This document shows positions 9,258 through 34,649 of a stretch of DNA of 64,000 nt, piece by piece. The stretch lies in assembly GCA_028293625.1 (NCBI GenBank), contig JAQGOL010000025.1, positions 248,001 through 312,000 on the forward strand, read 5' to 3'. The DNA is from Chthoniobacteraceae bacterium. GTDB lineage: Bacteria; Verrucomicrobiota; Verrucomicrobiia; Chthoniobacterales; Chthoniobacteraceae. The first letter of the stretch is position 1. Each line of letters starts with the position of its first letter. Under the pieces are notes generated by a model that saw nothing but the letters and a program-made list of their open reading frames with translations, did not search any database and was not told the origin of the DNA. A program made the position numbers and the translations under genes.

Positions 9258-11327
9258 TTACTTCGGCTCAGCCTCTTTCGTATAAGGCTGATGCACATTG
9301 CGGATAGCGGGTAGTGGCAGCTCGCTGGAAATGTAGAGATCGACGTAGCCGTTCTTTGCCTTTGGATCCGGCAGACGTTTCCAGCGGGCTTGCAAAACAA
9401 TCGCCGGGGGCAGATTACCGGCAATCGATACCGGAACGGCAGCCAGGTCACTTGGAGGTGAAAGCGCCCCGTTTTTCCGGGCGATAACCCGATAGAACCG
9501 ATACTCCGGGATAGTCTCAAATTTCGCCTCGCTGACAACCGCTACCAGGTTCTTGTTCGGCCGGCTTTGTTCGAGCTGCCCATTGCGAAGCGCGACTATT
9601 TCCTCCGTCGCATAGACCTCGGGCACAAAATCAAGCCGATGACTTCCGAAAACCAGATATTCAGTGGCAGGCTCCCCTTTTGGCCAGGAAAGGCGCAAGT
9701 TCCCTTGTGGAAGTGCTTCCACAACGACAGGGGTGGGACGCATCGGCACGTCGACTCTAAACTCCACCGGTGAAGACCATTCACCCCAGGTTCCTCCGCG
9801 GCCTTCTGTTCCTTTCCTGCGGGCTTTAACTCGGAGAAAATAGGTCTCGCCCCGGTTGAAAAACGTCGCCGTCAACGGATCAAACACCAGATTTTTTATC
9901 GGAGCACTGACGGAGTCAAAGTTCGGAATGACAAATCTGAAATCCGCGGATGTCGCCACCTGCCACCAATGGCGGTTTACGTCCGGCTCGTGGTCGATCT
10001 CAAACTCCGGCAACGGCCCGGCGCCCTCGCGGCGCTGGATTTTCGGGGCGAGGCCGATCGGATCGTGAAAGCGCTCAAACTCCACTGAAATGGTAGCTTC
10101 ACCGCGGGGATCCTTTGCATCAATGGCGAGCTGCGTTGTTCCTTTGTGAATGCGTGGAAATGAAACGCGCGAACGCTGGCAATAGACAGAAATCGGACCA
10201 GCATCAGGCTTGGGTTTGATAGTCAGATCAAAGACCGGTTCACCCGGTGGCACTGGAAACGATTCACCATTGCCTTGAGCAGTTATGCCAACGATCGGGT
10301 ATGCGCTCGAGATAGAGACCTCGCCCTCTGCATTCGAGCGCAACGCGGGATCGATGACCCATTCCACAAGGCAAAGAGCCGATTCGCGCAGCCCTTCCCA
10401 GGCCAGAATATTCGTTGTTCCAGCCGGATTTTCCGGGGAGCGGTCGTGATGGAAAATCAGCTTTTCACCGGGCAACAAAGTCTCGTGACGAAGCGCGATA
10501 TCGGGCGTCTTATGCTTGAGCGGCTTGCGCTCGCGCGGATCGATATATTCAAAGAGCGAAGTATTAAAAGCCGAGTTCACCAGAGACTTCGGCGAATGTT
10601 TGCCAAAGACCTTGGTCCGCAGCGCAATCAACGGGTCGGCGGCAATGTCCGCCGCGGAAGCAAGAGTGCGATTATCCCAGCCATGGTAGCAGACATTCTG
10701 ATCACCATCGATGACATGCCAGCCGCCATCGTAGAAGTATTCCGCAACGGTATGCCCGTTTAGCGCGATCCGGCGGCCAGGAATTCCGGCGTGTTCAAAA
10801 AACCGTGCCAGGACTTCGCTATCTTCCCCGCAGTAGGTATATCCCCAAAAATTCAGGGCTCCCACAGGATGCTCACTTGCTTTGCTGCCACTGGAAGCGT
10901 GTGAGCGGCTATCTTTCCAGAAAGTATAAAAACGCTCGACCAAAAGCCGGGGTTCGGCCGGCAGATGCAGGCTATCGCGGAGTTTGTCCACGCTACTCCA
11001 ATCCTGGCCGTCAACGATAAGGAGCCGGCCAGTGAGCGGCACCGCGCCACTGTTGACCAGTGTGATCCGACGCGAGAAATGGCGCATGGCCACCCCGTGC
11101 TGTCCGTAGCCGCGTGGATCGCGCAAACCGGCATCGTCCACGGAGACGTCAATGTCCAAAGCGCACGATTTGCCGGCTTGCACCTTCCTGACAATGATCT
11201 CTCCACAAACCGTTCCTTCCGAGCAGCCGAGCGCGAAAACCATCAGCATGGCGGATCTGCCGGTAAGCCGGTTCAAGAGACGGGAGCTCAAAAAAATCCG
11301 GCGAAGATCGCGAACGGTATAAAGCAT
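9258..11327 (-). CDS. Secreted transglutaminase-like protein
   Basis: A 689-residue protein with an N-terminal hydrophobic stretch near residues 25-35 ending in 'ALGC', which could be a signal peptide or an imperfect lipobox. The transglutaminase-like catalytic triad is visible as C166 in 'WGYTYCGEDSEV', H192 in 'LNGHTVAEYF' and D207 in 'WHVIDGDQN', with the family's usual spacing. Downstream beta-rich regions include at least one fibronectin-like stretch (about 530-640). In bacteria this fold usually gives cysteine proteases or amidases rather than protein cross-linkers, so the reaction is uncertain. It probably acts in the periplasm or on the cell surface. It is divergent from the hypothetical gene at 11530 and has no obvious partner. 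Confidence 0.65.
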   Translation of the reverse strand: MLYTVRDLRRIFLSSRLLNRLTGRSAMLMVFALGCSEGTVCGEIIVRKVQAGKSCALDIDVSVDDAGLRDPRGYGQHGVAMRHFSRRITLVNSGAVPLTGRLLIVDGQDWSSVDKLRDSLHLPAEPRLLVERFYTFWKDSRSHASSGSKASEHPVGALNFWGYTYCGEDSEVLARFFEHAGIPGRRIALNGHTVAEYFYDGGWHVIDGDQNVCYHGWDNRTLASAADIAADPLIALRTKVFGKHSPKSLVNSAFNTSLFEYIDPRERKPLKHKTPDIALRHETLLPGEKLIFHHDRSPENPAGTTNILAWEGLRESALCLVEWVIDPALRSNAEGEVSISSAYPIVGITAQGNGESFPVPPGEPVFDLTIKPKPDAGPISVYCQRSRVSFPRIHKGTTQLAIDAKDPRGEATISVEFERFHDPIGLAPKIQRREGAGPLPEFEIDHEPDVNRHWWQVATSADFRFVIPNFDSVSAPIKNLVFDPLTATFFNRGETYFLRVKARRKGTEGRGGTWGEWSSPVEFRVDVPMRPTPVVVEALPQGNLRLSWPKGEPATEYLVFGSHRLDFVPEVYATEEIVALRNGQLEQSRPNKNLVAVVSEAKFETIPEYRFYRVIARKNGALSPPSDLAAVPVSIAGNLPPAIVLQARWKRLPDPKAKNGYVDLYISSELPLPAIRNVHQPYTKEAEPK

Positions 11328-24876: not shown

Positions 24877-25425
24877 ATGACCTCACGTATTACTGCTCTC
24901 ACCCATTCTGGCATCATCCAAAAATTTCTCGTGCCGCTGTGCATGAGCGCGGCTGTTTTCACGACTCAAGCCGCTGAACCGGCGCTTCCGGGCGATAAAC
25001 CAATGAAGCTCAACAAACCATTGGAAATCAAGGCGGTGGCATTGCTTCCCGATGGCTCGATGTTACTTGGAGGAACCGCTGGCCTTTGCCTCTGGAAAGA
25101 TGGCGTTGCCAATCCCGTAAAAGGCCTTTCAGGAGGAAATTTGCCAGCCGGCGAAATTAAAGATGTGGCCGTGGACCTGCTTGGGCGCTGGTGGGTTGCA
25201 ACAAAAGAAGGCGTCGCATTCCGCAATTCTGACGGCCAATGGCAGGCAAGTCTGGAGGGCGATGTCCATCGCCTGCAAAGCGGGCCGGCGGGATCGGTGT
25301 ATGTCACATTGGGAAAAGGGGAAGGTGTGAAAAAAACAACCGATGGGAAAACCTGGGAGCTGGTCGTGGCAATGATGCCTGAAACGATGAGACCCGCTGC
25401 CGAATCCGCTAAAAGAGCCGAATAG
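24877..25425 (+). CDS. Exported propeller-like hypothetical protein
   Basis: A 182-residue protein with a signal peptide (hydrophobic residues 14-32, cleavage near 'TQAAEP'). The mature part has repeated 'IKAVALLPDGSMLLGGTAGL', 'IKDVAVDLLGRWWVATKEGV' and 'VHRLQSGPAGSVYVTLGKGE' stretches, which look like blades of a two-component-regulator-type beta propeller but too few to close a ring. It therefore may be a fragment or a partial propeller. It lies 18 bp before the PEP-CTERM gene that leads into the Verru_Chthon cassette and may be co-transcribed with it. Confidence 0.6.
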   Translation: MTSRITALTHSGIIQKFLVPLCMSAAVFTTQAAEPALPGDKPMKLNKPLEIKAVALLPDGSMLLGGTAGLCLWKDGVANPVKGLSGGNLPAGEIKDVAVDLLGRWWVATKEGVAFRNSDGQWQASLEGDVHRLQSGPAGSVYVTLGKGEGVKKTTDGKTWELVVAMMPETMRPAAESAKRAE

Positions 25426-25443
25426 CCCTACCCCAGAAATCCA

Positions 25444-26406
25444 ATGAAATTTCATCAGCCTTTTCTTGTCATTCTAGCCGGATTGACACTCTGCTCGCCG
25501 ACCAAACTTCATGCCGTCGGGGCTACGGTGCATTTCGATGCACTATCGGACATCAGCTCCTTTTCTTATCCAAACAGCACCGCGCAAACTACATTCGGAT
25601 TCGATAACACCACGGGAGTAGGCGGGACGGGCGGATCCGGTGTATTTCAATCCACGGCCGGCGCGGGAAGCGAGAAGCGAGTGCTTGCCTTGTATGATGG
25701 CCTTAATCTGAACTCCCCCGATGTCACGAGTTGGGAGACGTCTGTCTACTTGAAGTTCTCCGATCTGGTTTCCACACCGGCCAACGGGACAAATAGTGCG
25801 GAAGCGCGGTTCGGCTTTTTCGCCGCAAACCCGGCATATAATTACGGGGGCTCAAAGCCGCAGGATTTCGTCAGCCTGAATCCGTCTTTTTACGCCAAGG
25901 CGAAGTTCGAATGGGAACGTGGTGCCGGGAAAGAAGCCGTCATTTCGATCGAACCGTTGTTTTCCACAGGTTCCACGGAACTGGGATTATCGGGAGCTTC
26001 AAAAATGAAGACCACCCAATTTGATCTCAATGATTGGTTCAAGTTCACACTGACAATCACTCGGGACGATACGCCGGGGAATAACAGATACAACGGGAGC
26101 GCCGCGATTTATGATGTCGGCCTGGACGGAAGGGATGATCCGCTGCTGCTTACAGGCATCGGAGGAGTCGAGAGCGCGTCCAGCTTCCAATCGTGGACCG
26201 GAGCGGTTAACGGGCCATTCAGCACCAGCGCGCACATCAGTGGAGCAATGGTGCTGGGAGGGGAAAAGGGCCTGGCCTGGTCCAACTTGTATAACCTTCA
26301 TGTGGATGAATATTCCGTCATGGCGGTAACGGTGCCTGAACCGAACTCGCTTATTCTACTTGCCTTGATGACGACATGCTTTCGTTATCGCAGGAGCGAC
26401 CGTTGA
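25444..26406 (+). CDS. PEP-CTERM sorting domain protein
   Basis: A 320-residue exported protein: signal peptide at residues 1-24 ('FLVILAGLTLCSPTKLHA'), a beta-rich extracellular domain of about 270 residues, and a C-terminal PEP-CTERM tripartite signal: 'VPEPNS', a short hydrophobic helix 'LILLALMTTC', and the basic end 'FRYRRSDR'. Such proteins are cleaved and released or anchored by the exosortase EpsH/XrtA system, often with exopolysaccharide. No exosortase gene is in the window. The gene runs directly into the pseudopilin cassette and overlaps the next frame, so its product is a plausible client or partner of the cassette. Confidence 0.9.
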   Translation: MKFHQPFLVILAGLTLCSPTKLHAVGATVHFDALSDISSFSYPNSTAQTTFGFDNTTGVGGTGGSGVFQSTAGAGSEKRVLALYDGLNLNSPDVTSWETSVYLKFSDLVSTPANGTNSAEARFGFFAANPAYNYGGSKPQDFVSLNPSFYAKAKFEWERGAGKEAVISIEPLFSTGSTELGLSGASKMKTTQFDLNDWFKFTLTITRDDTPGNNRYNGSAAIYDVGLDGRDDPLLLTGIGGVESASSFQSWTGAVNGPFSTSAHISGAMVLGGEKGLAWSNLYNLHVDEYSVMAVTVPEPNSLILLALMTTCFRYRRSDR

Positions 26407-27416
26407 CCGATTATATAGCGGACAAGAGGATTGGGAGCTGCATCAGAAGTCTTGGCAATCCAGTCAGGAGCAATCAAACCGGCTTCTCACTGATCGAGTT
26501 ACTCTGTGTGCTGGTAGTCCTTCTGATTTTAGTTGGGCTGACAGCGAAGGGTTTGGAAGGTATTCAAAGCAGAGAACGGCCTCGCGCCGCGGCACAGGAA
26601 TGCCTCCTCATGTTGCGGGAGGCGCGGGAACTTGCCCGGCGAAAATCATGCCGCACCCGCGTGGTGTTCTCACTGCCTGGAAAGAAGAACATGCAATTGC
26701 CAATCGAGGAGCAGCCGCCTGAAAACTCGTTTGCAATCTTTGTTTTTCACATCCCGGTTGACGCGGCACAGCTCGTTCAATCGCTTGCCCCGGCGCGGCT
26801 TGTTGAAGCGGTGGATGGCGTGAACTCTCCACTTCATGAGATGGTCGCCATGGGCGCCGGCGCCTTGCCGGAGGCACTGATTGGCCAATGGATTCCAAGT
26901 CCGGAACGTCCCGCATGGTTTCGCTGTGCCGCGGGTGTGAAAATTGACGGCGCGCTTATTAAAGAATTTGAAGAGGACGGCTTTATCAAGTTCGCCAACC
27001 TCCACTTTTTTAAGCCGCGCGCGTTATGGGATGCGGATGCCACCCGCGAGCACGATGGGTTAAGCTGCCGCTCCCAGTATCCGCAAACCTATCAGTTGAC
27101 GCCTTTCCCCCGGTCCATTGCGTTATTCCTGGCACCACTCTTGGAAACCACGCGCGTTTATGACTATTCGAGAAACCTAATTGTTTCGGGAGCGGCACTT
27201 TGGGGAGATCAGGTCGTGCCGCAATTTGCTGTGTTGGCGCAATCCGGCATCTATCAGTTCGAATTACCGGCTGTCGAATTCGCATCCGATGGATCGCTGG
27301 CGACACCACAACAAAAACCGCTGCATCTCCGATTTCATCCACAGGATCGGGAAGAGCCAGGTTACGAGATCGCCATCGCTCCCGGTGACGGCCGCGCGAA
27401 ATTGGTTTCACCATGA
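26376..27416 (+). CDS. Verru_Chthon cassette protein D (pseudopilin-like)
   Basis: A 346-residue protein with a prepilin signal: a 36-residue leader, then G|FSLIELLCVLVVLLILVGL, i.e. the glycine cleaved by prepilin peptidase, the conserved glutamate at +5, and a hydrophobic helix. The rest is a large globular domain. Its place and size fit the D member of the Verru_Chthon cassette, a set of four co-transcribed genes defined from Verrucomicrobium and Chthoniobacter genomes and still without a known role. The ATG at 26376 overlaps the PEP-CTERM gene by 31 bp. A TTG at 26403 would give a 4-bp overlap (TTGA) and a 27-residue leader; either could be used. It overlaps gene B by 4 bp. Confidence 0.8.
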   Translation: MLSLSQERPLTDYIADKRIGSCIRSLGNPVRSNQTGFSLIELLCVLVVLLILVGLTAKGLEGIQSRERPRAAAQECLLMLREARELARRKSCRTRVVFSLPGKKNMQLPIEEQPPENSFAIFVFHIPVDAAQLVQSLAPARLVEAVDGVNSPLHEMVAMGAGALPEALIGQWIPSPERPAWFRCAAGVKIDGALIKEFEEDGFIKFANLHFFKPRALWDADATREHDGLSCRSQYPQTYQLTPFPRSIALFLAPLLETTRVYDYSRNLIVSGAALWGDQVVPQFAVLAQSGIYQFELPAVEFASDGSLATPQQKPLHLRFHPQDREEPGYEIAIAPGDGRAKLVSP

Positions 27417-27844
27417 AGCACGGCAGATCCGCGGGCTTTTCACTGATTGAGATCGCGGTTGCCGTCTCGGTAATCGGTTTCTGCGCCATTGCATTGCTGA
27501 TGATTCTCTCCAATAGCGTCAATGATACGCGCTCAATTCGAGATGAAACCATCGCGTTGCTGCTGGCGCGCAACGTTCGCACACTCCTTCTGGAGCCGGC
27601 CTGGCCTTTGGAAAAAAAACCGGCTCCCGATGGCTGGCGCGCCCAGGTCTTTTTCGATGGTAACTGCGCAATTGCAGAAGCCGAACGCGCGACTATTCGT
27701 GCTGAACTTGTCGCGCAAGGCGGCCCCGGCTTTGAGAGCGTGCGGGCCGAGGCAGTCAGGGTAATCTTTATTGAGATAGATTCGGGACGCGAACTTGGGT
27801 CCTATATTCTACAACGGCAAACCCGCACTCAGGCAGAGCCATGA
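27413..27844 (+). CDS. Verru_Chthon cassette protein B (minor pseudopilin-like)
   Basis: A 143-residue protein with a short leader then the prepilin sequence 'G|FSLIEIAVAVSVIGFCAIA', with glutamate at +5 and a hydrophobic helix. The soluble domain is about 100 residues. The size and position match cassette protein B, which resembles minor pseudopilins (GspI type) of type II secretion. Start and stop codons overlap the neighbours by 4 bp on both sides (ATGA at 27413-27416 and 27841-27844), implying translational coupling and tight stoichiometry. Confidence 0.85.
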   Translation: MKHGRSAGFSLIEIAVAVSVIGFCAIALLMILSNSVNDTRSIRDETIALLLARNVRTLLLEPAWPLEKKPAPDGWRAQVFFDGNCAIAEAERATIRAELVAQGGPGFESVRAEAVRVIFIEIDSGRELGSYILQRQTRTQAEP

Positions 27845-28617
27845 AGCATGTAAAGTTCGCGCACGGTTTTACTTTGATTGAAATGCTTGCCGCGGTCGCG
27901 CTGCTGTCTATTTTTGGCATCCTGCTCCTGAACCTGGTGGAAGGCACTCTGCGCTCTGTAGATATCTCGCTTGCACAAATGGCTCTCTTCGCCAATGCAC
28001 GGGCTCTTAGCGATGCTTTGGAGAACGATTTGGCGCGTGTTTCATTGGCTCAATCGACCAAGCACACTCTCGGATTGTTCCTGGAAGAGGATGGAGAACG
28101 CGTGCGGCTCGCCTTCAGCCTGCCGGTCACGCGGGTGACAAGCATTGAGCAATTTGGGCCGGTCGCGCATGTTGTATATCTTTGGGATAAAAAAACAAAG
28201 CAGCTGTCACGGGCGGAATTTCACGCTGAACGACATACAGACCTGGTCCGCTCCACGGGCAGTGATCCGGCCGGCGCGGATTATGCCGCCAATGAATCCC
28301 GGTCGGCACAACTTGCCCCGGCTTATCTTCCCGATGCTCCCGGTGAATGGCTCGATGATGCACGGATGGAAGCTGAGTTACAGAGCGCCACTCCTTTGCT
28401 CAAGGCAGTGGCTGATCTTGAATTCACTTGCTTTACCGATACCGCGCGAAAAGTGCCTCAGGCCCGCAACTCATGGTCCTTTCCAGATCGTCTGCCTGCG
28501 GTCGTGCGCCTGCGCGCCCGCCTGGCGGCGAATGAAAGTGCGAATATTTCAGGCCAGCGGCTCATTGAATTACTTATTCCCGTGCTCTCCATGAGCGAGG
28601 CGGAGATCCATGAATAA
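27841..28617 (+). CDS. Verru_Chthon cassette protein C (pseudopilin-like)
   Basis: A 258-residue protein with a nine-residue leader and the prepilin signal 'G|FTLIEMLAAVALLSIFGIL', like GspJ/PilW-type minor pseudopilins. The globular part has no cysteine pairs typical of pilins. It is the third gene of the D-B-C-A run and overlaps gene A by 8 bp. In the absence of a secretin, ATPase or inner-membrane platform in this window, it must rely on secretion machinery encoded elsewhere if it forms a pseudopilus. Confidence 0.87.
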   Translation: MKHVKFAHGFTLIEMLAAVALLSIFGILLLNLVEGTLRSVDISLAQMALFANARALSDALENDLARVSLAQSTKHTLGLFLEEDGERVRLAFSLPVTRVTSIEQFGPVAHVVYLWDKKTKQLSRAEFHAERHTDLVRSTGSDPAGADYAANESRSAQLAPAYLPDAPGEWLDDARMEAELQSATPLLKAVADLEFTCFTDTARKVPQARNSWSFPDRLPAVVRLRARLAANESANISGQRLIELLIPVLSMSEAEIHE

Positions 28618-31600
28618 CCGAAAACCGCATCCGCAAGCACTCGCAGGCGCGGCGCTGATCTGGGCGCTTCTGGTTTGCGGTTTACTCACAGTGCTGGTGC
28701 TCGGCCTTCTGACGGCAATAACCAGTGAACGCCGTCTTTCCCATGGCGAGACGGAGATTGGCGCGGCGGATCTGCTGATTGAAGGCGCGCTTGCCGAAGT
28801 CCGCGGCAAGCTGGCAACTGGATTTGATGCCGAAACTCCAGGCGCGGACGGGTTGCTTAAAGCAAGTGTTACGGCAAGCCCGGGTTTGATGGAAGTGCGC
28901 CATTATGGTTTCCCATACAACCGCGGCAGCGCATCGGGGCCGGCCGCGTTTGACCAAAAAGAGCTATCATCCTTCAGCCGGCCCTTTGCGGCACATTATG
29001 ATGGGAGCCCTGCCAACCCGCGCTGGATTCCCCTTTTCTCGTGGAAATATTTTGCGCCTACCTTGCGAAATCTGACCCAGACGCTCGGGCGTCCGGGCGA
29101 TCTCAACAGCGATTTTAATCCCGCGGCTGTCTTCAACCTCAACACTCCGAACAATCCTTTTTCTCCGGGCTATTGTTATCTTTCCGGGGTCGGCGGCGAT
29201 CCCGCGGGTGTCCGCTACGAAAAAGATGTGCAAGGGCATTGGGCCACCGCCGGCGCCCGGGAAAAGTTCGCGCTGTTTCCCGGCGAAACCAGCGCGGAAC
29301 GCCCCGTCTGGGTTCAATGGATTCCTATCTTGCAGGATCCGGCAAAACCGCCTGGCAATAAAAACCGGATGATAGGCCGTTACGCCTATTGGGTGGACGT
29401 TGAGAATACCAAACTCCATCTGGAGCGCGCGACCCGGCCGCTGCGTCAGCATGAAGTCTTTGCGCGGTTTTTAGGCGAAGGCGACGCGGCCGCTGGCAGC
29501 GGCGGCTATTTTAGCCAGAGCGGCGGCAATCCGTTTAGTGCGCTGCGGTTGCGCGCGGAAGGAGCCGTCGCGCATTGGGATAAATCCAGCCGCCGTTCGC
29601 TGGACGGACAACCCGGACCTGGATTTTCGGGAAGCGTGGGAGCGGAGGCGCGAGATGCGTGGCTCGACTGGCGCAACGGTGAACGCCCCGCCGCGGCAGA
29701 CACCTCGCTGGTAGACTGGGATTTTTTCGCGGCATTGCGCCCCCGGGGCACCGCGGAAAAAATGGCACTCGATGGGATTCTTGGCGAGCATGCGCGAAGG
29801 GTAACCCAGGAGGCGGCGGTCCCTTTTAACAGCCCCTGGGAAGCATTCATGTTGCTTGATCCCAAGCTTCGCAAGGAGAGTTCCAGCACGGTGGATATAC
29901 GAGCCGACTTAATGCGGCAGATGCTCACCTCGTCGGCAACGATTTGGGGCCATGATGAGGAACGTGATCCGCTCGGCCGGCCGAAGATCGATCTGCCCAA
30001 ATTTCAATGTCAAATTTCCGGTACGGCCGGCGCGAACATTGAGAAAATCACGCAAAGCACCTTGTGGATGCGTCTCCACGATGCGCGCTATTTTTCCGCC
30101 TATTATCCCGCTGCCTTCCCCACCAACGGTCAGCCGCGATCGTTTATCCAGTCATTTAACCGTTTTGCCGGCGATGGATCTTCCTCCAGGGATGCCAATG
30201 GCGAGGCCGCCGTGTTGCAGATGCTTGCCAATATCGGTGAATATGCGCAGCCGGCCAGCACGGCACCACTCATTGATCGCGAACGTGGGATCGTTGGCGG
30301 CCGCTCGATGCCGTATGTTGCCGAGGTTGCCACACGCGCACGCAGTGCCTGGTGGCTGTTGCCGCCCGCGGCGAGGGCAAATCCATCCGCCTTTTTCCAA
30401 ACCAACGGTTCGGCCAACGATGGAGGCAATTCGCTTGCCTGGTATGCGTCCCACTTAATCATCGACCTGACTATCGGCTGCATAAATCCGAATCCATTTG
30501 AGACCCGGCCTTTTGATGGTGAACTTGAACTTGACGCTGACTGGCATGATATCCCGCCTGGAAGCCAGATAGAGTCAGGCCCATTTCGCGCCGGGCTAAA
30601 AGGACTCTTTACTACTTCGCCGGAAAGCGGCAAGGCACCCAAGCGGGTTCGGCTTCTTGGAAAAACGGTGACTTTCCGCCTCGGAGTCGTGCCAGCCAGC
30701 GCATTACTGGATCCGGCTTTTGCCACCGCCTTCAGAATCAAAGGGTGGCGCGTTCGCTCAGGCAACCAAGTCTGGCATGAGGTGCCGGTGCGCCATCCAG
30801 GAGCGAAAGAAACGCGCGAATGGTGGGCTATGGCGCAACCTGGCGAAAACGCTGGAAGCCCATGGGATTCACGCTCGCTTGCGGCCTATCAGTTCAAACC
30901 GGAAACTTACGGCTACCGAGCGGTAGGGTGGTTTACAAAGCCATCCCTGGATATGCTCATGCCCGACACGCTTTTTGTCGCCGGCCTCGATCCCACGCGC
31001 CCGCTGACTTCCGCGCTCTCCAGCCGCCTGGCAACATGGCTTCAATGGACTCCAATGACTTCCATGGTCGAACGCGTTTTCAGCGTCGACCCTGTTCTTG
31101 GACATCGCACGGGCGATCCAACCCTTCACGGGATTTGGGGAAAGGGCCATTTTTATGGCGCGCTTGGCCATCCGTGGCGTCGGCTCTCCCAAAGACCAGC
31201 TTACCAGTCGATCAAGTCAGGGCAAACAATGCCCGAGATCCGCGAACTGGCCATCCAGGAATGCGATTACACATTGGGAAACCGGATCGAGGCAGGGATC
31301 GCTGGTAAGATCGGCCGAGGCGCATTCCTTGACTCAGGCCAGCATCCCGCCTCGGTGCTACCCGTGACCGCGCATCCGGGCAAAGTCTACTCCGGAAAGT
31401 ATTTCTCTCACTATTGGCTTTATCCGACAGAGAAACAGGACACGACAATATCCGCGCCTGACTCGCCCACCGGATTATTTCTTGTTCCTTCAATAGAAGG
31501 CAGTTTCCCGCTCGGAGATCTCGACGCTGAACATTGGCTTGATACCACTGTGCAACTTGAGTCCGCGGAAAGCGGACGCGTATGGAAAGATGCCGATCTG

Positions 31601-33025
31601 GAAACCGCGGAACCTTTGATTGACAAGGGAGACCTGACCGCGCTTCCCGAGTCGAAAAAAAGCAGCCGTTCCCTTTTCTGCCAGGCTCCCGCAAGCCGGC
31701 CAATGACTTCTTTGGGCGAACTGGGCTTCTGCCACTCCGGATTCTTTAATCGTCCCATTCTCATCGGTCCGGAAGAAGGCCGCACCGATGTACAACTCAA
31801 CTCGCCCCGGCACGGGCCGCCAATGCGAATGCTGCTCGATCTCTTCAATCCCGCGGTTTTTGCTGATCCGGATACAGGCTCGCCGCTTTCCGCGGCAGCC
31901 TGGGCCGCCGGCAATTACCGTTCGGCTTCACCTGAGCATCCGAGGCGAGGCCTCTGGAGTGTTAATACCGCGATTGCGCACGACGGCTACATGGCACTTC
32001 GCGAAGGAGGCACGGCCAACGATTGGAACCTGAAGACGCTGGTTGAACCAACTTACTTGCCGGCACACGTTGTCTGGCTGCCAAATGCAAGAGGCCATGC
32101 CCGCCGGCAGCTCGGCGCGGAAAATTTCCACGGCAAGGAACTTGGCGATCTTTTTTCGACAAACGTCGGCCATATACTCGACCGCCATCTCAGCCCGTTT
32201 CCCGCTTTTGATCGTCCTTGGGAAATGTGGCTTGGGATGATTGGTGGAGATTTTTCGGCTACTCGGGCCAGCGGCGGCCAGATGTGGGGCATCAACAACG
32301 CACTTCGCATTTTTTATGGCCCCGGCAGCTTCACCTGGTGTCCGGGGAAAGGACTCGGGCTGCGCGCCCCTTACTATTCGAACCCCTTTGTTGATTTCGA
32401 GCCTTCAGCAACTCACCGCGGCAAACTCCTTGTCTTTGGCAATGACGGACGCGATGACACGACCAATACGGGCGACGGCTGGCTGCGCGGGCGTTGCGCG
32501 GCGGACCAAAACCTCGACTCGCTAAAAGCGGGACGCCTTACCTATCTGCCAGCCCACCATGTCACGCGATTAAGTCTCTTTCCGATACGGCATTTTATCA
32601 GCGACTTAAGCGTCGATTACCAAGTGGACGGTGAATTTCACTATCTCAAAAGCCCGTTAAATCCGCGTCAAAATAGCGCTCCGCCGCCCTCCGACAATTC
32701 CTCGGCGCTAAACGTTGAAGGAGGAAGTTTTCCGGGCGGCTGCCATATGACTGGCGTCTTCTACCATGCGCCACTTGCCTTGCTTCTGAATCAGGCGACT
32801 ACCGCCGCAAACGCTTTTACCGCGCACATTGTGGTCCAAAGCATGCGCGACTTGGGCAAGAAACGGGAAACCATCGAGAAATCCGGATACGGGTTTAGCG
32901 ATTCCGATGATGAAGTCCTCTGTGAACGTTGGGCACGAGTTGTCCTTGCCAGTTCGCCGGATCACTCCGAGGTGCCCGAACCTCGAAAACTGCGGGTCGT
33001 GAGTTTTGAAAAAGCAGGCCGATAG
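28610..33025 (+). CDS. Verru_Chthon cassette protein A (giant GspK/PilX-like protein)
   Basis: A 1471-residue protein, the largest in the window. A basic N-terminus leads to one membrane helix ('AGAALIWALLVCGLLTVLVLGLLTAI', residues 12-37 roughly) with a GspK/PilX feel: a positively charged start, a hydrophobic helix, and a following 'TSERRLSHGETEIGAADLLIEGALAEV' segment. The very long remainder is presumably extracytoplasmic and rich in Trp, Tyr, Gly and Pro. In the cassette's definition protein A is the large final member. It may cap a pseudopilus tip, as GspK does, with an added very large domain; this is inferred. No enzymatic motif was recognised. Confidence 0.85.
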   Translation: MNNRKPHPQALAGAALIWALLVCGLLTVLVLGLLTAITSERRLSHGETEIGAADLLIEGALAEVRGKLATGFDAETPGADGLLKASVTASPGLMEVRHYGFPYNRGSASGPAAFDQKELSSFSRPFAAHYDGSPANPRWIPLFSWKYFAPTLRNLTQTLGRPGDLNSDFNPAAVFNLNTPNNPFSPGYCYLSGVGGDPAGVRYEKDVQGHWATAGAREKFALFPGETSAERPVWVQWIPILQDPAKPPGNKNRMIGRYAYWVDVENTKLHLERATRPLRQHEVFARFLGEGDAAAGSGGYFSQSGGNPFSALRLRAEGAVAHWDKSSRRSLDGQPGPGFSGSVGAEARDAWLDWRNGERPAAADTSLVDWDFFAALRPRGTAEKMALDGILGEHARRVTQEAAVPFNSPWEAFMLLDPKLRKESSSTVDIRADLMRQMLTSSATIWGHDEERDPLGRPKIDLPKFQCQISGTAGANIEKITQSTLWMRLHDARYFSAYYPAAFPTNGQPRSFIQSFNRFAGDGSSSRDANGEAAVLQMLANIGEYAQPASTAPLIDRERGIVGGRSMPYVAEVATRARSAWWLLPPAARANPSAFFQTNGSANDGGNSLAWYASHLIIDLTIGCINPNPFETRPFDGELELDADWHDIPPGSQIESGPFRAGLKGLFTTSPESGKAPKRVRLLGKTVTFRLGVVPASALLDPAFATAFRIKGWRVRSGNQVWHEVPVRHPGAKETREWWAMAQPGENAGSPWDSRSLAAYQFKPETYGYRAVGWFTKPSLDMLMPDTLFVAGLDPTRPLTSALSSRLATWLQWTPMTSMVERVFSVDPVLGHRTGDPTLHGIWGKGHFYGALGHPWRRLSQRPAYQSIKSGQTMPEIRELAIQECDYTLGNRIEAGIAGKIGRGAFLDSGQHPASVLPVTAHPGKVYSGKYFSHYWLYPTEKQDTTISAPDSPTGLFLVPSIEGSFPLGDLDAEHWLDTTVQLESAESGRVWKDADLETAEPLIDKGDLTALPESKKSSRSLFCQAPASRPMTSLGELGFCHSGFFNRPILIGPEEGRTDVQLNSPRHGPPMRMLLDLFNPAVFADPDTGSPLSAAAWAAGNYRSASPEHPRRGLWSVNTAIAHDGYMALREGGTANDWNLKTLVEPTYLPAHVVWLPNARGHARRQLGAENFHGKELGDLFSTNVGHILDRHLSPFPAFDRPWEMWLGMIGGDFSATRASGGQMWGINNALRIFYGPGSFTWCPGKGLGLRAPYYSNPFVDFEPSATHRGKLLVFGNDGRDDTTNTGDGWLRGRCAADQNLDSLKAGRLTYLPAHHVTRLSLFPIRHFISDLSVDYQVDGEFHYLKSPLNPRQNSAPPPSDNSSALNVEGGSFPGGCHMTGVFYHAPLALLLNQATTAANAFTAHIVVQSMRDLGKKRETIEKSGYGFSDSDDEVLCERWARVVLASSPDHSEVPEPRKLRVVSFEKAGR

Positions 33026-33142: not shown

Positions 33143-33961
33143 TCAGACCGTCCCTTCAAGCAGCGCGTTCCAAGCCTCTTCAACAGCCTGGCAACCTGCT
33201 TCCAGAATCAGCGCGGTCATATCGTCCTCCATTGCGACGCGAACGATGATACGACTTCCCCTGTTGCTCTTTTTTTGTTGCTCGAGAGAAACTCGAGTGA
33301 AGAGTTTCGGTTGAAAATGCAACCCGGTCACGTCGTCAGAAGCCAGCCACCAATCCTCGCCTGTTTGAAGAAAACGCGGGACGAATTCCACTCGCTGCGT
33401 GACCGATTTCCCATACAAGGTTACCCGAACCGGCATTGCTGAGTCGACGCAGGCCGCCATAATGGCTTGGAAGGCGCCCCTACCGCAGCACCATAGCGTG
33501 CGCATTGCCTCTTGCGGAGTAATCTCTTCCTCCGTCTCCTCCAGCCACGAGGCTGCAGAATGAGCGGCGCAGGCCTGATGCAGCCGCGCCCAGGCAAAAA
33601 ATTCATCCATGTCGCTCTCTTTTGTAAGAGTAAATCGTTGAACGATTTGTCCGGCGGCATTTGCAAACTCGACACCAAAGAGATGGCCGGTTTTTTGCCG
33701 CACATGCACAGCTCGTGCGGCACCAAGACGACCAAAATTCACCCATAGTCCGCCATGCCCGCTGGCGCCTTTGCCTCCGCCGCTGGTGACACTCAGCGCC
33801 GGATACTTCATGTGGCGCTCCAAAATCGCAACCGCATTGCGGGTCATCAGCAACCCCACTTTCGCAAGCACCAGCTGCTCAAACATCCGTGCCCAATCCG
33901 TGCCGAGATTGACCCGCAGATGCCGTCCGTCCTCGCTGTGGCTGATATTGACAAGTTGCAT
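33143..33961 (-). CDS. Hypothetical protein with weak HmuS/ChuS-like resemblance
   Basis: A 272-residue soluble protein. A middle segment (about 80-135: 'ARAVHVRQKTGHLFGVEFAN...AGQIVQRFTLTKESDMDEFFAWARL') recalls the repeated half of heme-handling HmuS/HemS/ChuS proteins, which carry a 'partition of a beta strand, D-x-x-G, x-x-x-F-x-x-x-R, W' pattern. The C-terminal half 'FLQTGEDWWLASDDVTGLHF' would fit the same comparison. The resemblance is weak, no heme-ligand histidine is obvious, and no heme transporter is nearby, so I leave it unnamed. It stands alone on the minus strand. Confidence 0.5.
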   Translation of the reverse strand: MQLVNISHSEDGRHLRVNLGTDWARMFEQLVLAKVGLLMTRNAVAILERHMKYPALSVTSGGGKGASGHGGLWVNFGRLGAARAVHVRQKTGHLFGVEFANAAGQIVQRFTLTKESDMDEFFAWARLHQACAAHSAASWLEETEEEITPQEAMRTLWCCGRGAFQAIMAACVDSAMPVRVTLYGKSVTQRVEFVPRFLQTGEDWWLASDDVTGLHFQPKLFTRVSLEQQKKSNRGSRIIVRVAMEDDMTALILEAGCQAVEEAWNALLEGTV

Positions 33962-34256: not shown

Positions 34257-34649
34257 CTACCACCCGCTCGCGTAATAACCCGGACCGCTCGACACCCCCA
34301 GCGAGAAGGCCACGCCGGGCCGGTAATATGGCCGGTAACCATAATCATATGACCGATAGGCATATGGCCGATAATAATACGGTCTGTTATATCCGTAATA
34401 ATACGGCCTATTGTATCCATAATAATATGGCCTGCTATAACCATAACGGTATGGCCGATAATAACGATGCCGATTATATCCGTAATAATATGGCCGATGA
34501 TGCCTGTAATATCCGTATCGATCGCCGCCCCGGTAATAACCGTGGTGGTGATGATGATGACGATGGTGATCCCGCGCCTCGATCTGCGGCGTTCCTGACA
34601 GCCCCATTCCCAATGTAGCTGCCACAATTAAAAGTAGTCTTTGCAACAT
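34257..34649 (-). CDS. Secreted Tyr/His/Arg-rich repeat protein
   Basis: A 130-residue protein. A good ribosome-binding site (AAGGAG, about 8 bases before ATG) supports the start. A signal peptide is followed by a histidine run ('HHRHHHHHHGYYRGG'), then by short tandem repeats of the type YYYGYNRP / YYRPYRYGY spanning roughly residues 45-105, and a hydrophobic C-terminal end 'GVAFSLGVSSGPGYYASGW'. Repeat-unit DNA is AT-rich and imperfectly iterated ('GGCCATATTATTAT' type). The composition is like surface or matrix proteins that bind metals or cross-link through tyrosine, but no function is known. The opposite-strand frames here are shadows of the repeat. Confidence 0.75.
   Translation of the reverse strand: MLQRLLLIVAATLGMGLSGTPQIEARDHHRHHHHHHGYYRGGDRYGYYRHHRPYYYGYNRHRYYRPYRYGYSRPYYYGYNRPYYYGYNRPYYYRPYAYRSYDYGYRPYYRPGVAFSLGVSSGPGYYASGW

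Follow-up and report, generated by a model that had tools for sequence, protein, structure and literature searches.

It has long been asked how the filaments of type II and type IV systems select their cargo. In the window, by which we mean the whole stretch of 64 000 nt of Chthoniobacteraceae DNA that was analyzed, four overlapping pilin-like genes directly follow a gene for an exported PEP-CTERM protein, and the original prediction regarded this arrangement as a Verru_Chthon cassette that forms a pseudopilus on a client basis, each cassette carrying its own secreted partner. The locus raises the question of whether a set of minor pilins without a machine of its own serves the exported protein encoded beside it. 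With a partner that is exclusive to it in the genomes searched, such a tip cassette offers a defined pair of a giant K-like and a lectin-like protein for testing specificity.

Layout of the apparent operon in the window

The genes of the locus are as follows:

24877-25425, + strand: propeller-like gene, 182 aa, small and exported, first in the apparent operon
25444-26406, + strand: PEP-CTERM partner gene, 320 aa, exported, predicted lectin-like (ConA jelly roll) with a PEP-CTERM tail
26403-27416, + strand: D, GspH-type minor pseudopilin, given from its preferred TTG start (longest ORF from ATG 26376, 346 aa)
27413-27844, + strand: B, GspI/PilV-type minor pseudopilin, 143 aa
27841-28617, + strand: C, GspJ-type minor pseudopilin, 258 aa
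28610-33025, + strand: A, giant GspK-like minor pseudopilin, 1471 aa

By checking the open reading frames we found the overlaps among the pilin genes exactly as they had been claimed (D/B 4 bp, B/C 4 bp and C/A 8 bp). The overlap between the PEP-CTERM gene and D is real as well, and its size depends on the start of D: it amounts to 31 bp from the ATG and to 4 bp (TTGA) with the preferred TTG. An AGGAG lies a few bases 5' of TTG 26403 and none is found 5' of ATG 26376, so that the TTG is the likelier start; the junction then becomes a 4-bp stop-start which resembles the ATGA junctions of D/B and B/C. Because the propeller-like gene and the PEP-CTERM gene are separated by only 18 bp, all six genes appear to form one operon. 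A scan for sigma-70-type promoters found no site, and terminator-like sites were not above chance. The designation 'propeller-like' for the first gene is weak: the window protein matches no propeller family in Pfam, while a homologue shows weak propeller matches. Downstream of the cassette a convergent gene on the minus strand (33143-33961) shows weak similarity to HemS/ChuX; we rejected it as a haem link since the E-value of 0.017 is too weak and there is no PDB match. A small exported protein with a very high content of His, Tyr and Arg is encoded further on (34257-34649, minus strand).

Assignment of the four pilin genes

Prepilin signals are present in D (GFSLIE), B (GFSLIE) and C (GFTLIE) as predicted, and A is indeed a GspK-like protein of 1471 aa, whose start is of the GspK style without E5 (AGAALIWALL). 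The prepilin model TIGR02532 scores above its cut-off in D, B and C. Pfam N_methyl is above its cut-off in D and C; for B it gives 19.5 against 21.2 in the isolated ORF and reaches 22.2, above the cut-off, in the genome scan. We compared the four proteins with the curated NCBIfam Verru_Chthon models TIGR02596, TIGR02598, TIGR02599 and TIGR02600 (for D, B, C and A, respectively), and all four missed the cut-offs (bits/cut-off: D 16.5/70, B 15.2/51.4, C 25.3/256.5 and A 25.8/332.3). Of the name given to the cassette, the D-B-C-A order and the prepilin N-termini therefore hold, whereas membership in the curated families does not. On these profiles we regard D, B, C and A as a divergent Verru_Chthon subfamily. 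Related Verru_Chthon-type cassettes are present in many of the Verrucomicrobiota genomes scanned; curated models exist for these families, and in a non-exhaustive search of the literature we found no paper naming them. The ordinary cassettes share with the window cassette the gene order, the prepilin signals, a giant GspK-like A and the ends of A, but those examined have neither the lectin-like partner nor the propeller-like protein.

The equivalog cut-offs for GspH, GspI, GspJ and GspK were all missed as well (15.9/80, 26.9/44.35, 18.9/64.85 and 11.4/130 bits, respectively). Below the cut-offs, B matches GspI with an E-value of 5e-6, and C matches the N-terminus of TIGR02599 with 8e-6 and GspJ with 1e-3. 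The top profile matches of D, B, C and A are of the H-, I-, J- and K-type, an assignment for which the sister cassettes in this genome give clearer matches. By these matches the four pilins resemble the GspH/I/J/K tip set without a major pilin, an ATPase or a secretin. They share with the type II GspH-I-J-K set the number of four subunits, weak profile matches and a K-like start lacking E5, but differ from it in that the window cassette has no GspC-G/L/M and that A exceeds GspK in size several-fold.

Conserved ends and subfamily-specific middle of protein A

Compared with A of the ordinary Verru_Chthon cassettes, A of the window can be divided as follows:

28610-29431, + strand: residues 1-274, common to ordinary Verru_Chthon A (hhalign probability 99.4, E 8e-22)
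29375-29413, + strand: subfamily signature GRYAYWVDVENTK (ordinary family: GRYAFWxDDE..KLNxNTA)
29432-32686, + strand: residues 275-1359, subfamily-specific middle, no profile match to ordinary Verru_Chthon A
32687-33022, + strand: residues 1360-1471, common to ordinary Verru_Chthon A (hhalign probability 86.5, E 5e-7)

The N-terminal match covers residues 10-274. Homology to the ordinary protein is thus confined to about 270 N-terminal and about 100 C-terminal residues, and the approximately 1100 residues in between are unrelated; we rejected a homologous middle because no match was obtained at the profile level. The signature separates the two families further, since GRYAYWVDVEN[TS]K occurs in all members of the subfamily whereas ordinary A proteins carry GRYAFWxDDE, and the DDE..KLNxN of the latter stands against DVENTK in the window subfamily. 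A search of the PDB gave no sequence match for the middle, and the AlphaFold2 model of residues 275-1471 reached a mean pLDDT of 36.8. As the structure of A did not model, it is from sequence profiles that we infer a giant insertion, specific to the subfamily, which interrupts a GspK-like pilin.

Predicted lectin fold of the partner

We divided the exported partner into two parts:

25507-26340, + strand: residues 22-299, ConA-like domain (AlphaFold2 model and structural comparison)
26332-26394, + strand: residues 297-317, PEP-CTERM sorting signal (TIGR02595)

A sequence search of the PDB gave nothing useful for this protein. The AlphaFold2 model, built from seven sequences, has a pLDDT of 70 and a pTM of 0.76; Foldseek matched it to legume lectins with an E-value of 1.6e-6, and comparison with VIA gave a Z of 15.3 over 211 residues with an rmsd of 3.8, at a sequence identity to lectins of about 10%. 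With moderate model confidence, the domain is therefore predicted to have the jelly-roll fold of concanavalin-type lectins, and the partner may bind glycans. Neither the partner nor the propeller-like protein, including those homologues in relatives that were scanned, matches a PilY1-type family in Pfam.

The tail reached the cut-off of TIGR02595 (18.4 bits, cut-off 16) and did not reach that of Pfam PF07589 (15.7/20.7). With a signal peptide, a C-terminal PEP motif, a transmembrane segment and a basic tail, the window partner agrees with the known PEP-CTERM/exosortase sorting (PMC1569441), and five exosortase genes (PF09721) are present in the genome. However, the tail is confined to the window copy and the partners of the relatives lack it, so that the conserved part of the coupling is the lectin-like domain and not the PEP-CTERM signal as originally supposed. 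The tail could hold the window partner in the envelope without any pilus.

Co-occurrence of cassette and partner in related genomes

We found seven further cassette loci with 30-45% identity and a patchy spread. Six of them were detected by scanning 84 980 species genomes (L084-L087 and the Opitutales loci L088 and L089; 38-46% best-segment identity), and searches of the phylum and the family added one more, in genome G394; judging from coordinates and an in-frame stop, the genomes G441, G648 and G604 appear to be those of L085, L087 and L084. The A subfamily was found in 3 of 387 genomes of the phylum, 4 of 68 of one family and none of three of the same genus, and no A orthologue beyond motif-level matches was detected in 39 other genomes of the family and 213 of the order. 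Homologues of D are present at L084-L086, L088, L089 and G394 (E 2e-34 to 4e-17), and homologues of B and C were also found at the related loci.

All of the five closer relatives of A (about 40-45% identity) adjoin homologues of both upstream genes of the window, the propeller-like gene (L084-L087, E 1e-18 to 2e-7; G394, 1e-12) and the partner (L084-L087, E 4e-14 to 6e-8; G394, 5e-15). The homologues of the partner are secreted and about 1460-1690 aa long (the one of L085 is cut by the contig end); they contain the window-type domain three to four times and, in the three that were scanned, FN3 domains. We searched five whole genomes with a profile of the partner domain and obtained matches only in genes next to the cassette, the window protein being the sole match in its own genome; as some of the searched sequences had gone into the profile, the strength of self-matches is meaningless and the evidence lies in the absence of matches elsewhere. 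Two extra matches in G441, right at the beginning of contig C8, are probably the continuation of the partner gene that runs off the end of contig C37. At 21 other loci, most of them pilin cassettes, we covered 331 kb and found neither the partner domain nor the propeller-like protein. Against a reading that ties partner and tip together it counts that the partner, depending on the genome, stands upstream or downstream of the cassette, and that the Opitutales loci L088 and L089 have neither the lectin-like partner nor a propeller-like homologue, but instead a downstream exported protein of 709-711 aa with a weak propeller-repeat match.

The patchy distribution would also suit a mere linkage of the genes in one operon following horizontal transfer, with no joint function. 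We consider this highly improbable, because the association is kept in six of six loci at an A identity of about 40% even though the order of the partner changes, and because the partner family was found nowhere but next to the cassette in the genomes searched.

Machine genes and other pilin cassettes in the host genome

A genome lacking a prepilin peptidase and a secretion platform would have spoken against the original prediction. This objection is ruled out, since we found a prepilin peptidase (one gene) together with five full-length matches to GspE/PilB-type ATPases, several shorter PilT-like matches and four clear secretins. All of these machine genes are located elsewhere; the window cassette and its near neighbours contain no gene for an ATPase, a platform protein or a secretin.

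TIGR02600-like sequence occurs at five places in the 6.8 Mb assembly, namely in full length on contig C31, partially on C26 (133-137 kb), on C6 and in the window, and as a short match on C20 (189 kb) that lies inside a frame of 1308 aa with no flanking pilin genes. We counted four A-type cassettes, one of B-C-A order (C31) and three of D-B-C-A order (C26 at 133-139 kb, C6 and the window). As none of the four carries machine genes, a shared machine is plausible for them. Their upstream neighbours are a sugar-binding ABC protein that is part of a separate transporter operon (C31), a DUF1501 gene with a PSCyt1/PSCyt2/PSD1 gene (C26, 139-144 kb), an amidohydrolase-like gene (C6) and the lectin-like PEP-CTERM protein (window). 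They follow no single rule, and we rejected the universal form of the proposal, in which every copy would be directly preceded by an exported gene that differs from copy to copy; what stands of the client idea is that a dedicated exported partner travels with the window cassette.

Other types of cassettes have exported neighbours as well. In seven of eight ordinary Verru_Chthon loci tested, another conserved exported protein, which matched no Pfam family in the members tested, is encoded downstream:

L090, 7928-8602: downstream exported protein
L093, 6946-7674: downstream exported protein
L094, 13071-13850: downstream exported protein
L096, 5521-6303: downstream exported protein
L097, 6046-6792: downstream exported protein
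L098, 12051-12872: downstream exported protein
L099, 12886-13791: downstream exported protein

Three-pilin (PilV-W-X-like) sets are found in the host genome at C31 (94-98 kb and 406 kb), C39 (503-506 kb) and C27 (68-71 and 72-75 kb), and all except that on C39 are followed by an exported gene of 190-200 aa belonging to one loose family (BLAST E 5e-7 to 4e-79). Cassette types therefore seem to have type-specific exported neighbours in variable position.

With H/I/J/K-like profile matches in the cassette, and with secretins and a T2SS-like operon encoded in the genome, the four pilins could alternatively be the piston head of a type II-like secretion system, in which A would recognize the partner and expel it into the medium. 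The partners of the relatives, secreted giants with no anchor, fit this proposal, but the T2SS-like operon (on contig C13) already encodes its own pseudopilins and the window partner has a tail for retention or processing, and we rate secretion of this kind as rather unlikely.

A proposed tip complex with its own partner

Two known systems come close to the arrangement in the window. In Myxococcus xanthus three minor-pilin/PilY1 clusters serve one machine (PMC7541494); these are likewise four-minor-pilin clusters, each with a large exported protein, but the window partner is ConA-like by prediction and has no PilY1 match. In Streptococcus sanguinis the tip minor pilin PilC carries a ConA-like lectin module (PMC9934059), so that there, too, a lectin fold is tied to a minor-pilin tip complex; the module of PilC is grafted onto the pilin, whereas the lectin-like protein of the window is a separate exported polypeptide. 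HIJK sets are furthermore interchangeable in promoting assembly (PMC9934059). Given these precedents, a tip complex that carries a partner is the most economical reading, and we give a probability of about 0.55 to an H-I-J-K-type tip complex which, on a shared machine, displays or exports its own lectin-like partner. The single detected prepilin peptidase would process D, B, C and probably A. The four minor pilins would then form a tip complex and start a pilus or pseudopilus on an ATPase/platform/secretin machine encoded elsewhere, and the middle of A, held between its conserved ends, may be the specificity element at the tip. By binding the partner the tip could either display it at the end of the filament, as with PilY1 or the lectin module of PilC, or export it through the outer membrane like a type II client. 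In this genome the partner would be one lectin-like domain open to processing by an exosortase, and in the relatives a secreted giant with three to four such domains and FN3. Against this reading also stand the scores of all four pilins below the curated family cut-offs, the restriction of the PEP-CTERM tail to the window copy and the redox or iron-uptake genes next to the cassette in several relatives.

If display were the only function, the cassette would form an alternative type IV pilus tip on which the lectin-like protein or giant acts as a PilY1-like capping adhesin, with no free client. The match of four minor pilins and one large exported protein to the M. xanthus clusters (PMC7541494), the predicted lectin fold with PilC as precedent (PMC9934059) and the adhesin-like tandem ConA/FN3 architecture of the relatives' partners are consistent with an adhesive tip. 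The partner has no PilY1 family match, however, and its PEP-CTERM tail implies that it is inserted into the membrane and cleaved by an exosortase, which is unusual for a pilus cap, so that we hold this for possible but doubtful. The adhesive tip and type II-like secretion are the two halves of the preferred explanation, and their likelihoods are not to be added to that of the tip complex with its own partner.

A wider reading, which we consider less likely than not, is one filament or secretion machine in Verrucomicrobiota with interchangeable minor-pilin tips, each cassette type having its own exported partner and the insertion in A being a partner-specific receptor; this would fit the different conserved exported neighbours of the two other cassette types. 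Minor-pilin tip sets are already known, and what our findings suggest as new is that such a cassette has a lectin-like partner of its own, provided in trans.

Redox and iron genes at related loci

At four of the related loci a transmembrane protein with a weak PepSY_TM-like segment and a degenerate flavodoxin-like part is encoded between the propeller-like gene and D. In three cases this protein is fused in frame to D (L084, 7055-8713; L085, 7395-8939; and G394, L113/L114), with the prepilin motif about 240 residues into the ORF. The homologous transmembrane protein at L086 (E 1e-28) is a complete flavodoxin/FAD/NAD reductase. In addition, L085 has a TonB receptor of the FecA/siderophore type, L086 a FeoB/FeoA-like pair (read by eye), and an ECF-type sigma gene is present at L084 and, by similarity, at G394.

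These neighbours hint at a role outside the tip model. The cassette might belong to an envelope module for metal uptake or redox reactions, with the propeller-like protein, the transmembrane/flavodoxin-like protein and the TonB receptor as core and the pilins and lectin-like protein as surface-binding accessories. Such a module would account for the PepSY_TM-like protein beside the cassette in five relatives and its fusions to D, and for the reductase, Feo, TonB and sigma genes. However, none of the redox or iron genes adjoins the window cassette, where the similarity to HemS/ChuX is weak, and the TonB receptor and the Feo genes occur in one locus each; we therefore consider the module improbable.

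As a minor observation, A of L087 (Verrucomicrobium sp. BvORR106) contains an in-frame TAA at codon 345 (10988-10990), which reflects either a sequencing error or a broken gene.
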